In this document: positions 37,768 through 41,612 of the stretch, piece after piece
How positions within the stretch are numbered: the stretch's first letter is position 1
Layout: each line of letters starts with the position of its first letter
Assembly: GCA_951813535.1 (NCBI GenBank)
Contig: OX638345.1
Location: 1,981,158 to 2,045,157, forward strand
Source of the DNA: an uncultured Dehalococcoidia bacterium
Lineage (GTDB): Bacteria; Chloroflexota; Dehalococcoidia; Lucifugimonadales; UBA3495
Direction of reading: 5' to 3'
DNA length: 64,000 nt
Made by a program: the position numbers and the translations under genes
Notes under the pieces: model-generated
Databases searched by the model: none
The model's input: the letters and a program-made list of their open reading frames with translations, nothing else
Told to the model about the DNA's origin: nothing

Positions 37768-39180
37768 CTAAAGCGGAGGTCGCCGGGCGTGCCAGTCCGT
37801 TGCTTGCTGGTACGCGTATGCGGCCCGCAGGACCGTCAGTTCGTCAAAGTTTCGGCCCGCCAGGTGCAGCCCCACCGGCAACCCGTCCGGCCCAAATCCG
37901 CACGGCACCGAAATCGCCGGCGACCCGGTGATGTTGTAAACCCGCGTGTACTTGGTCAGCATCGGCACCGCTGGCAACGCCTCGCCGCCGATTTCGATTC
38001 GCCTTTCCAGGATCTGCGGAGCCGTTACGGGCTCCACCGGCCCGGCCAGGAGGTCGACGTTTTCCAGCAGACCGGCCACCTGCTGGCAGAAAACCTGTCT
38101 CGCCTGCTGCGCCCTCAGGTACTCCGTCGCCGAGATAAAGAGGCCTTCCTCCAGCCGATCACGTACCTGCGGATACATCTTGTCGCCGTCGCTCAACAGG
38201 ACGTCCCGATGGGCGGCCGTGGCCTCGGCGCTGAGGATGGCATTGCTGATGGGCTGGGCGTACTCGTACATCGGCAGCGAAACGTCCACGATCTCCGCGC
38301 CCAGTTCGCCCAGCATGGTGATCGCCTGATGCGTCAATGTCGCCACGGCGGGGTCGATTTCCGTTTCGAAATATTCCTTTACCACGCCGATGCGTAAGCC
38401 GCGAATATCGCCGGTCAGCGCCGCGGTGTAGTCTGGGACCGGCGCGTCCGACGTGGCGTGATCCCGAGGATCGCGTCCGGCGATGACGTTCATGGTCAGC
38501 GCCGCGTCTTCTACGGTTCTGACCATCGGCCCGGGATGGTCCAGGCACCAGGACAACGGCGTCAATCCGGCCCGGCTCACCCGCCCGTAGGTCGGTTTCA
38601 GCCCCACTATCCCGCACAGCGCGGCGGGTATCCGCACGCTTCCGCCGGTGTCGGTGCCCATCGTGATGGTGCACTGTCCGGCCGCCGCCGCGGATCCGCT
38701 TCCGCCGCTGGAACCACCGGTGATTCGCTCCGGGTTCCACGGGTTGTGCATGTGACCGTAATCGCCGTTCTCGCCCGTTGGCCCAAACGCGAATGGATGC
38801 ATGTTCAGCTTGCCCAGCAGTATCGCGCCGGCTTGGCCGAACCGGGTGGCAACCGTACAGTCTTCTTCGGGAACAAAGTTGTCGTAGATCCGTGTCCCCG
38901 ACGTGGTCTTCACTCCCGCCGTGTTGAACAGGTCCTTCAACCCCACGGGAATGCCATGCAGTGGCCCGCGGTAATTTCCCCGGCCAATCTCGTCCTCTGC
39001 ACGCCTCGCCGCTTCCCTGGCCTGTTCCGGAATCAGGGTGATGAAGGAATTGAGGGTGGGTTCGGTAGCTTCGATCCGTGTGAGGCACGCGCCCACAACC
39101 TCCACGGGAGAAACCTCGCGGCTGCGGATCAAGCCGGACAATTCCCAGGCCGACATGTAGTGGAGTTCGTCGCCGGCCAT
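37768..39180 (-). CDS. Amidase-signature enzyme (GatA-like)
   Basis: A 470-residue amidase with the Ser-cisSer-Lys triad: K82 (GIPVGLKDLF), S157 and S181 (GGSSGGSGSAAAAG... GTDTGGSVR). It is close to GatA in the core, but no gatB is seen. The small GatC-like gene just upstream (3-base gap) suggests a two-subunit amidase, like AtzE/AtzG, rather than tRNA amidotransferase. Substrate unknown. Confidence 0.88.
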   Translation of the reverse strand: MAGDELHYMSAWELSGLIRSREVSPVEVVGACLTRIEATEPTLNSFITLIPEQAREAARRAEDEIGRGNYRGPLHGIPVGLKDLFNTAGVKTTSGTRIYDNFVPEEDCTVATRFGQAGAILLGKLNMHPFAFGPTGENGDYGHMHNPWNPERITGGSSGGSGSAAAAGQCTITMGTDTGGSVRIPAALCGIVGLKPTYGRVSRAGLTPLSWCLDHPGPMVRTVEDAALTMNVIAGRDPRDHATSDAPVPDYTAALTGDIRGLRIGVVKEYFETEIDPAVATLTHQAITMLGELGAEIVDVSLPMYEYAQPISNAILSAEATAAHRDVLLSDGDKMYPQVRDRLEEGLFISATEYLRAQQARQVFCQQVAGLLENVDLLAGPVEPVTAPQILERRIEIGGEALPAVPMLTKYTRVYNITGSPAISVPCGFGPDGLPVGLHLAGRNFDELTVLRAAYAYQQATDWHARRPPL

Positions 39181-39183
39181 GGC

Positions 39184-39414
39184 CTAACCTCCAGTTCCTG
39201 CGCTGGGTTCTCGATGCGTCGACGGGATGAATGCCGAAGGAGCCTCGGCGCCGGACACGTCGATCTCGTAAAGACGCGCCAACCCCTCACGCATCAGGGC
39301 CACCCGCCGCGCCAGGTCTTGGGCTCGTTCCTCATCTGACACGTCCAGACCCAACGCCTGGGCCATGCGCAGGAACCCTTCTCCAAACCCTGGTGAATCG
39401 GAAGCTGTGGACAT
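39184..39414 (-). CDS. GatC/AtzG-like small subunit partner of the amidase
   Basis: A 76-residue protein: FLRMAQALGLDVSDEERAQDLARRVALMREGLARLYEIDVSGAEAPSAFIP. The helical hairpin plus the D-x-x--EP/AP tail is that of GatC-like or AtzG-like subunits, which wrap around the amidase. I chose ATG 39414 because GGGGAGAG is just upstream; a longer frame to 39486 would cross the promoter. It begins the amidase operon. Confidence 0.65.
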   Translation of the reverse strand: MSTASDSPGFGEGFLRMAQALGLDVSDEERAQDLARRVALMREGLARLYEIDVSGAEAPSAFIPSTHREPSAGTGG

Positions 39415-39465
39415 TCGCTCTCCCCGCAACATCGTCGCTATCTGCTGTCCCGGCGGGCGTGCGCA

Positions 39466-39494
39466 ATTATGGCCCAACGAGCCCAAGTTGGCAA
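39466..39494 (-). promoter_or_regulatory. Sigma-70 promoter for the GatC-like/amidase operon
   Basis: On the minus strand, TTGCCA (39494-39489), 17-base spacer, CATAAT (39471-39466). The IS target duplication starts 8 bases upstream of this -35. Confidence 0.6.
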
Positions 39495-39502
39495 ATCGGA
39501 CC

Positions 39503-39512
39503 GGTGCGCCGA
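39503..39512. repeat. Left target-site duplication of the IS
   Basis: GGTGCGCCGA, identical to the copy at 40743-40752. Ten bases fits the ISAs1 family. Confidence 0.95.
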
Positions 39513-39530
39513 CAGGGCAATCGCATTTCA
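39513..39530 (+). repeat. Left terminal inverted repeat of the IS
   Basis: CAGGGCAATCGCATTTCA, an exact inverted match to 40725-40742. Confidence 0.97.
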
Positions 39531-39593
39531 GATTATTCTAAAAATCGGGCTAAAGTGTTGCCACGATCTGATTGTCTGAGGTGCGTGGTGGAG

Positions 39594-40727
39594 ATGGACA
39601 ATGTACCGCTTTCGATTGCCGAACGGTTTGGAATGCTGGAAGACCCGAGAACCGGACATGCCAAAAGGCATGAGTTGCTGGACATCATCGTCATCACTCT
39701 TTGCGCGGTGATCTGTTGCGCCGACAACTGGGTGGAGATTGAGGAGTTCGGTAAAGCCAAGGAGGATTGGTTCCGCCGCTTCTTGCAGTTGCCAAACGGC
39801 ATACCCTCCCACGACACCTTTGGTCGGGTGTTTGGTCTGCTGGACCCGGAGCAGTTTTCGGCCTGTTTCATGGACTGGGTACGCTCGGTGAGTGAACTGG
39901 CCCAGGGTGAGGTGGTGGCGATAGATGGCAAGACCCTGCGGGGTTGCCATGACCGGGCCAACGGCCGAGGTGCGCTGCATATGGTCAGCGCGTGGGCCAC
40001 CGAGAACCGGATGGTGTTGGGACAGACCCGCACCGAGGCCCATTCCAACGAGATCACGGCGATACCGGAACTGCTCAAGGTGTTGGAACTGAAGGGTTGC
40101 CTGGTGACGATAGACGCCATGGGCTGCCAGAGGAACATCGCCCAGCAGGTGGTGCAGGGGGGCGCTGACTACCTGCTGGCGGTGAAGGCCAACCAGGGAG
40201 AGTTGCACCAGAACATCAAGGACCTGTTCGCCTGCTGTGAGCGTGTAGGATGGGATGGTGTGGCTTACAGCCACCACCAACAGGTGGGCAAAGACCACGG
40301 CCGGCTGGAACGGCGGGAGTGCTGGGCGATCACCGACCCAGAGGAACTGACCTACGTGGACCCCCAGCGCCAATGGGCCAGCCTGGGCGCGGTGGCCCGG
40401 GTCAGCTACCGACGGGACGCTACCACCGATGCCCCAACCGATACCCGCTACTACATCTGCAGCTATCCGGCGGACGCGGCCACGCTGCTGGCATCGGCCA
40501 GAAGCCACTGGAGCATCGAGAACAGCCTGCACTGGGTGCTGGACGTGGCCTTCGACGAGGACCACAGCCGAGTGAGGACCGGCCACGCTGACCAGAACCT
40601 GGCAGTGATCAGGCACTTGGCACTGAACCTGCTCAAGCAGGAACGCACCGCCAAAGTCGGCATCAAGGCCAAACGCAAAAAAGCCGGATGGGACTTCGAT
40701 TACCTGCTCAAAGTCCTATCCCTGTGA
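39594..40727 (+). CDS. ISAs1-family DDE transposase
   Basis: A 377-residue transposase. The N-terminal region (DPRTGHAKRHELLDIIVITLCAVICCADNW) is the family domain. Catalytic residues are D111 (AIDGKTLRG), D174 (TIDAMGCQ) and E309 (HWSIENSLHWVLDVAF). The stop codon lies inside the right terminal repeat. I set the start at ATG 39594; a longer open frame upstream runs out of the IS and is not used. Confidence 0.95.
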   Translation: MDNVPLSIAERFGMLEDPRTGHAKRHELLDIIVITLCAVICCADNWVEIEEFGKAKEDWFRRFLQLPNGIPSHDTFGRVFGLLDPEQFSACFMDWVRSVSELAQGEVVAIDGKTLRGCHDRANGRGALHMVSAWATENRMVLGQTRTEAHSNEITAIPELLKVLELKGCLVTIDAMGCQRNIAQQVVQGGADYLLAVKANQGELHQNIKDLFACCERVGWDGVAYSHHQQVGKDHGRLERRECWAITDPEELTYVDPQRQWASLGAVARVSYRRDATTDAPTDTRYYICSYPADAATLLASARSHWSIENSLHWVLDVAFDEDHSRVRTGHADQNLAVIRHLALNLLKQERTAKVGIKAKRKKAGWDFDYLLKVLSL

Positions 40728-40742
40728 AATGCGATTGCCCTG
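40725..40742 (-). repeat. Right terminal inverted repeat of the IS
   Basis: TGAAATGCGATTGCCCTG, exact complement of the left end. It contains the transposase stop codon. Confidence 0.97.
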
Positions 40743-40752
40743 GGTGCGCCGA
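40743..40752. repeat. Right target-site duplication of the IS
   Basis: GGTGCGCCGA, identical to 39503-39512. Confidence 0.95.
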
Positions 40753-40844
40753 CGGGTCCGACGAACGGTGCCCAATCCGCCCCAAAATGCCTGTACTCTA
40801 TACTGCGTCGCCCTACCTTGGGCTCCATCCACGATGACGTTGTC

Positions 40845-41612
40845 ATGATGCAATCGTTCTGCAGCCATTGCGGCGCCGCGCTTTGCCCCGGCGCACCCGA
40901 ATGTCCCGGGTGCCAGGCAGTCTTGACTGCTGCTCCCGTTCCATCCGATACCCGCTCATGGGGTATCTGGCAACCCGCCCTGGGGTTGATGGTGCTCGTG
41001 CCCTCCGCGGTGCTGATCGCGTCTTTGGCCTTGCTGATCCCCCTCGCCGTTGCCGCCGTCGTTTCCGCGACCGTGCTGGGCATCCTCCAGGTTGTTCTCG
41101 TGTGGCTCCTGGGCATCCGCGCCTGGCCGCCCCCGTTGGCCCTGATCGGGTTCACCAGTCCTCGCACTTCGCGCCTCATCACACCGATGCTTGCCGTGGC
41201 CGCGCTGATCTGCAGCCTCGGTTTCGCCCAGCTGTACACCATGGCCGCGATGGCGGTGGGTTGGGACTTCCTCATGCCTCCCGAACTGCCGGATGGCCTG
41301 CTGCTCCCCGGAGGTTGGGTGATCGTCAGCGCCGTGGCCCTGGCGGCCTGGACACCGGTTGCGGAGGAGGTGTTCTTCCGTGGATTCATCCTGCGCGGTC
41401 TCGCCAACCGCTGGGGTTTCGCGCCCGCCATCGTCGTGTCGGCCGCGGTGTTCTCCGCCCTGCACCTGTCTCCGGCGTTGCTGTTGCCGGTTTTCGTCAC
41501 GGGCCTGCTGCTGGGTTTCCTGTACCGACGGACCGGCTCGCTTTGGCCCTGCATCGCGGTGCACGCTGCCCAAAACCTGGTGGCCGTGCTCGGCGCATCG
41601 TTGGGTCTGTAG
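40845..41612 (+). CDS. CPBP (CAAX-type) intramembrane protease with zinc ribbon
   Basis: A 255-residue membrane protein. The N-terminus has a zinc-ribbon-like pattern FCSHCGA...CPGCQ (C6, C9, C20, C23). Then come several TM segments and the CPBP motifs: EEVFFRGF (catalytic Glu pair and Arg), FSALHL (His) and an HAAQN late in the last helix. Family members process prenylated proteins or peptides, or act as immunity proteins. Start could be ATG 40845 or 40848, or TTG 40818. Confidence 0.85.
   Translation: MMQSFCSHCGAALCPGAPECPGCQAVLTAAPVPSDTRSWGIWQPALGLMVLVPSAVLIASLALLIPLAVAAVVSATVLGILQVVLVWLLGIRAWPPPLALIGFTSPRTSRLITPMLAVAALICSLGFAQLYTMAAMAVGWDFLMPPELPDGLLLPGGWVIVSAVALAAWTPVAEEVFFRGFILRGLANRWGFAPAIVVSAAVFSALHLSPALLLPVFVTGLLLGFLYRRTGSLWPCIAVHAAQNLVAVLGASLGL

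Follow-up and report, generated by a model that had tools for sequence, protein, structure and literature searches.

An ISAs1-family insertion sequence and its miniature relatives often lie at a fixed distance from outward-facing promoters in a genus of Dehalococcoidia

Target choice by bacterial insertion sequences is, to our knowledge, mostly unexplained. The locus described here poses the question at a single site, where an insertion sequence (IS) lies directly upstream of the promoter of an amidase operon and between the two arms of a palindrome: what accounts for its place? A first-pass annotation of the DNA had proposed that the IS broke an operator, TCGGACC-N12-GGTCCGA, controlling the amidase operon.

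The insertion, the amidase promoter and the split palindrome

The IS in the window (the whole 64-kb stretch of DNA analysed; Table 1) clearly belongs to the ISAs1 family, with a transposase that scores 430 bits against the ISAs1 model NF033564 (cut-off, 70) and exceeds the cut-offs of both PF13808 and PF01609. It is like the family in its transposase, its length of about 1.2 kb and its CAGGG-type terminal repeats, and the plasmid members of the family examined here have 10-bp target copies as well. The perfect inverted repeats and the 10-bp copy of the target on either side were found where the first-pass annotation had placed them. The IS-bearing genome (G000, a single contig of 4.38 Mb) holds six copies that are 100% identical over the IS length, five of them flanked by intact 10-bp target copies; the identity of the copies suggests recent IS activity, in keeping with the recent insertion that had been proposed. 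No solved structure similar to the transposase was found at E-values up to 0.01, and the viral contigs searched held no relative. PF13808 occurs in six of 148 genomes of the class (own genome included) and in five of the 48 genomes behind the loci, with few whole elements in either set.

Table 1. Features at the insertion site, with positions in the window
Feature	Position	Strand	Remarks
Amidase	37768..39180	-	470 aa; PF01425
Small first gene of the operon	39184..39414	-	76 aa; GatC-like according to the first-pass annotation; no Pfam match
-10 hexamer CATAAT, amidase operon	39466..39471	-	17-nt spacer after the -35
-35 hexamer TTGCCA, amidase operon	39489..39494	-	18 nt from the IS edge
Gap from target copy to -35	39495..39502	-	8 nt, GGTCCGAT on the minus strand; holds the left palindrome arm
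Left palindrome arm TCGGACC	39496..39502	.	Directly read; absent in 13/13 relatives
Left target copy GGTGCGCCGA	39503..39512	.	10 bp; directly read
ISAs1-family IS	39513..40742	+	1230 bp; terminal repeats CAGGGCAATCGCATTTCA, 18/18 identical
Transposase, ISAs1 family	39594..40727	+	377 aa; DDE_Tnp_1_assoc + DDE_Tnp_1
Right target copy GGTGCGCCGA	40743..40752	.	10 bp; directly read
Right palindrome arm GGTCCGA	40755..40761	.	Directly read; absent in 13/13 relatives
CPBP/Rce1-like membrane protease gene	40842..41612	+	Divergent; opposite side of the IS

One of the six identical copies, L002 (G000:C1:3892113-3893358, minus strand), has no target copies and has in common with the window IS the 16 nt to the left of the element, CGGACCGGTGCGCCGA, as though the window site, flank included, had been its source; an assembly fault is a possible alternative. 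The possibility that CGGACCGGTGCGCCGA is a dispersed repeat serving as target was rejected, as no repeat family was found; besides the two IS flanks, it matches 24 places with one or two mismatches, compared to 13 for the reversed control pattern.

Transcription of the amidase operon is expected to start near position 39459. All 13 same-genus relatives, which hold an amidase orthologue (83–94% identity), retain the promoter with its 17-nt spacer and no more than one mismatch in the two hexamers combined. The models nearest to the amidase are AtzE and GatA, with scores below their respective cut-offs.

Removal of the IS and one target copy does restore a palindrome with arms 12 nt apart, and its left arm adjoins the -35 of a real promoter, as the first-pass annotation had noted. 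The palindrome itself, however, is conserved in none of the 13 relatives that keep the promoter: no perfect 7-nt arm pair occurs within 60 nt upstream of the -35 in any of them, and the best fit to both arms has 4–8 mismatches of 14 (one of the 13, G009, carries a miniature element, or MITE, at the amidase site). The annotation had also pointed to other promoters as places to look for the same palindrome, and a search of the IS-bearing genome for exact matches to TCGGACC-N12-GGTCCGA returned no other occurrence. Perfect 7-nt arm pairs with spacers of 0–20 nt are common in the window, where 184 were counted (one per 348 bp, spanning 4.6% of the bases with at least one pair), compared to 117–151 in five shuffles. 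The operator reading is rejected, and given almost no credence, because the palindrome is absent in the relatives and has no other exact match in the genome and because such pairs are common. The palindrome is not clearly above chance, while the IS and the promoter are, and on the sequence comparisons the split is best taken as a coincidence, such that the IS probably broke no special control site. It is the promoter, not the palindrome, that explains the place of insertion.

Distance between element ends and promoters within the genus

The first sign of a fixed register was a TTGACA-like hexamer at 18 nt, seen when the flanks of the IS copies were aligned by distance from the IS. The same-genus set consists of the ends with no more than one mismatch to the 16-nt IS end in 14 genomes of the genus, most of the genomes used in this analysis being drafts. 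It holds 135 ends in 12 of the 14 genomes. Of these, 134 had 60 nt or more of flank, 133 were distinct and 131 remained once near-identical flanks were taken out. A TTG is present 18 nt from the end in 33 of the 131 (mean at other offsets, 2.4), and TATAAT-like hexamers (≤2 mismatches) occur at offsets 41 and 42 in 23 and 17 ends, respectively (mean elsewhere, 2.7). Promoters scoring at least 9 of 12, which are consensus matches and not mapped starts, have their -35 at 18 nt in 24 cases, at 17 nt in none and at 19 nt in two, and reverse-facing promoters with such a score amount to four matches over 60 offsets in 133 ends. These same-genus data are the discovery set for both the offset and the motif. 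A profile search with PF00872, intended for a control IS family, gave seven matches in five of the 14 genomes, and because all of these covered only part of the model, there is no control set from another IS family.

Among the ends are those of 39 insertions with 10-bp target copies (30 exact and nine with one mismatch), comprising eight full-length ISs and 31 short elements with the same ends; L262, which has an 11-bp repeat, and two of the three nested pairings of L276 were left out. A TTG lies exactly 18 nt from the edge in 24 of the 39 insertions (seven of eight full-length ISs and 17 of 31 short elements), on one side only and never on both, with the flank to the left of the element in 12 cases and to the right in 12. 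When outward promoters were scored over -35 and -10 together (threshold, 8 of 12 letters), 24 of the 39 insertions had one whose -35 lies at 18 nt, compared to 0–3 at each of 26 other fixed offsets. As counter-evidence, 15 of the 39 elements have no TTG at this distance. Promoter regions differ in bending and melting as a matter of general knowledge, and it could be this DNA shape that attracts the element with no protein partner involved. Such an attraction seems quite improbable, given that the register in the genus is a single nucleotide and that no AT enrichment is present in the 15 nt next to the element (AT, 0.37–0.38).

The same precision bears on selection as an explanation, under which insertion would be random and the survivors would be those that spare the core promoter, or those that were favoured for altering expression. 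Core promoters are spared in the matches, and in one published case an ISAs1-type IS upstream of lmb came with raised expression (PMC2875397, in its accessible part). Survival would, however, allow a broad upstream zone, which is not the distribution of the high-scoring promoters over offsets 17, 18 and 19, nor would it call for independent double hits on the same nucleotide; we regard selection as very unlikely to be the cause. The first of these double hits involves the amidase promoter itself. In the relative G009, a MITE of 132 bp, which shares its ends with the IS and has target copies of its own, sits upstream of this amidase -35 at a distance of exactly 18 nt; the window IS and the MITE are independent events at the same nucleotide of orthologous promoters. 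The second consists of the IS copy L203 in G000 and the short element L279 in G004, for which no target copy was found; their promoters are identical at 81 of 100 positions beyond nt 18 and at 8 of 18 before it.

Both hexamers contribute to the signal. A -10 at a 17- or 18-nt spacer accompanies 25 of the 33 TTG flanks (19 and six, respectively). The corresponding counts are 33 for the 1676 TTGs of the window and six for the 71 TTGs that these flanks have at other offsets, and flanks without the TTG still have a -10 at offset 41 or 42 in 15 of 98 cases (background, 3.9%; p = 6e-6). A longer spacer moves the -10 while the -35 stays in place, so the register is to the -35. This constancy of the TTG at 18 nt would also be expected if the transposase itself read a TTGAC-like sequence 8 nt outside the 10-bp target, with promoters being struck only for carrying TTGAC, and one match, L005, is apparently located within a coding frame. 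Direct reading of TTGAC nonetheless appears unlikely in view of the excess of correctly spaced -10 hexamers beside the TTGs at 18 nt over those beside TTGs elsewhere in the same flanks, and of the -10 hexamers in flanks without a TTG, since a reader of TTGAC needs no -10.

L005 is one of five genome copies with the signal; the frame around it seems to encode leucine-rich repeats, and a working promoter there is unlikely. Of the other copies, L203 (the same copy as L004) has a 404-aa frame that begins 54 nt past the -10, L006 has a 448-aa frame downstream, and for L003 no clear gene was found within 300 nt downstream. Beside the element end, L208 (G000:C1:914512-915162) and L213 (G001:C45:210120-210770) have near-identical flanks, which probably go back to a single old insertion passed down to both species; the promoter TTGACA-17-TAAACT is still present. 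Two genomes, G009 and G005 (L222–L267), carry numerous MITEs of about 130–240 bp that share the 16-nt ends of the IS, amounting to 43 ends in G009 and 31 in G005, and the IS itself has only short, partial matches there.

Promoter-bound RNA polymerase as a putative guide

Together, the flanks suggest that the element and its miniature relatives find their targets via the host RNA polymerase. We consider it probable that the ISAs1-family IS selects targets by promoter, likely through docking of its transposase on promoter-bound RNA polymerase holoenzyme, a contact that we infer solely from the -35/-10 geometry. By the sequence statistics in the genus, the IS and the same-ended MITEs make a 10-bp target copy with its promoter-side edge 8 nt upstream of a sigma70-type -35. 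Element edge and -35 are then 18 nt apart, and the complete core promoter remains beyond the insertion, facing outward. If transcription begins about 7 nt beyond the -10, the 10-bp target would span positions from about -53 to -44, on the upstream border of the polymerase footprint. The alpha C-terminal domains sit at this border, with sigma region 4 on the -35, and in the proposed mechanism the complex of transposase and element ends would dock on the holoenzyme near these parts and be joined to the DNA within this span. Docking of this kind at the amidase operon promoter would have brought the window IS to its place immediately upstream. The host keeps its core promoter, and the DNA above about -53 is replaced. 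The hexamers are 18–47 nt from the joined end, which is presumably far for a transposase to read alone, and a docked holoenzyme would explain why both hexamers are involved and coupled via the spacer, and why the signal is one-sided and faces outward.

Integration of the yeast retrotransposon Ty3 involves contact with TFIIIB. Ty1 integrates upstream of genes via contact with Pol III (PMC10050235, in its accessible part). Both offer a parallel in how the system works, integration upstream of genes through the transcription machinery, with the corresponding contact here being putative, but they are retrotransposons with integrases in a eukaryote and no relatives of the window IS. Another comparison is with ISs that carry an outward -35 and form fusion promoters, where the IS is placed beside promoter hexamers (PMC9330008, accessible part); these differ from the present case, in which both hexamers are the host's and lie outside the element and the target copy. 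A promoter-anchored target rule for the ISAs1 family was not found in searches of full-text literature, a body from which subscription papers are mostly absent, and the accessible parts of PMC5005324, PMC8763236, PMC9330008, PMC9208149 and PMC6382973 state no such rule. The ISAs1 family is listed among those over-represented between convergent genes (PMC9208149, accessible part), an excess that does not favour guidance by promoters.

With a register fixed to both promoter hexamers, target choice becomes a question that can be tested directly. Such a register would turn ISAs1 and MITE insertions into promoter marks in uncultured bacteria, and it would explain why such elements are found just upstream of genes, changing expression while sparing the core promoter.

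Other genera and other ISAs1 elements

Across 50 genomes of the family (the genus included), 48 exact ends were found in seven genomes of other genera, and the 47 other-genus regions taken from these yielded 51 ends with no more than one mismatch. A TTG at 18 nt is present in five of the 51 (mean elsewhere, 1.1; p = 0.005) and a -10 at offsets 40, 41 and 42 in six each (mean elsewhere, 1.2), with only three promoters scoring at least 9 at 18 nt and the rest scattered over offsets 6–20. The register in these other genera is broader and blurred.

A further sample was drawn from ISAs1 elements on plasmids, consisting of 28 loci out of 867 hits that were hand-picked, with clinical isolates skipped, and are thus not random. 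Target copies were identified for 23 of the 28 (46 flanks; none for L312, L327, L332, L334 and L342). Six of the 46 flanks have a TTG at 18 nt (mean elsewhere, 0.8; p = 1.7e-4) and nine have a -35-like hexamer (≤2 mismatches) at this offset (mean elsewhere, 1.5; p = 1.6e-5), while the -10 is weak, with four of 46 at offset 41 and also four at offset 57. The six TTG matches belong to elements of Rhizobium, Azospirillum and Methylosinus (L308, L323, L325, L329, L330 and L331), including a Rhizobium element with the flank TTGCAC-17-CATAAT and a transposase 39.5% identical to that of the window IS; no signal was found in the flanks of the ISAzs12 copies (L338–L340) or of L333, L335 and L336. A fixed promoter distance is present in the genus and blurred in the other genera, and among the proteobacterial ISAs1 elements examined only some show it.

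The IS-bearing genome also holds a second ISAs1 group (L008–L012), with five copies of 1233 bp, ends CAGGGCAATCGCGTCTTA and target copies of 9 bp for L012 and 10 bp for the others. The DNA of this group is 66% identical to the window IS, and the best promoters over scanned offsets of 14–22 have their -35 at 17 nt in three of the five copies (scores 8, 9 and 9). Docking that varies from one transposase to another fits both the blurred register of the other genera and the 17 nt seen in the second group. We lean slightly towards a wider statement, that ISAs1 elements, a widespread bacterial family represented here in Chloroflexota and Pseudomonadota, are guided by promoter-bound sigma70 RNA polymerase and insert at about -53 to -44, as a bacterial counterpart of Ty1 and Ty3. 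In this view the transposase sets the distance, at 18 nt for one group and 17 nt for another in the same genome.

A published insertion with similar geometry comes from IS1548, which we take to be a member of the ISAs1 family. In Streptococcus agalactiae, 9 bp separate IS1548 from the putative promoter of lmb downstream of it (PMC2875397); in its accessible part, this source describes a single site, without a general rule, and leaves unstated whether the target copy is excluded from the 9 bp, a distance close to the 8-nt gap in the window. IS1548 has also been described 38 bp upstream of an Mga site (PMC5005324, accessible part).
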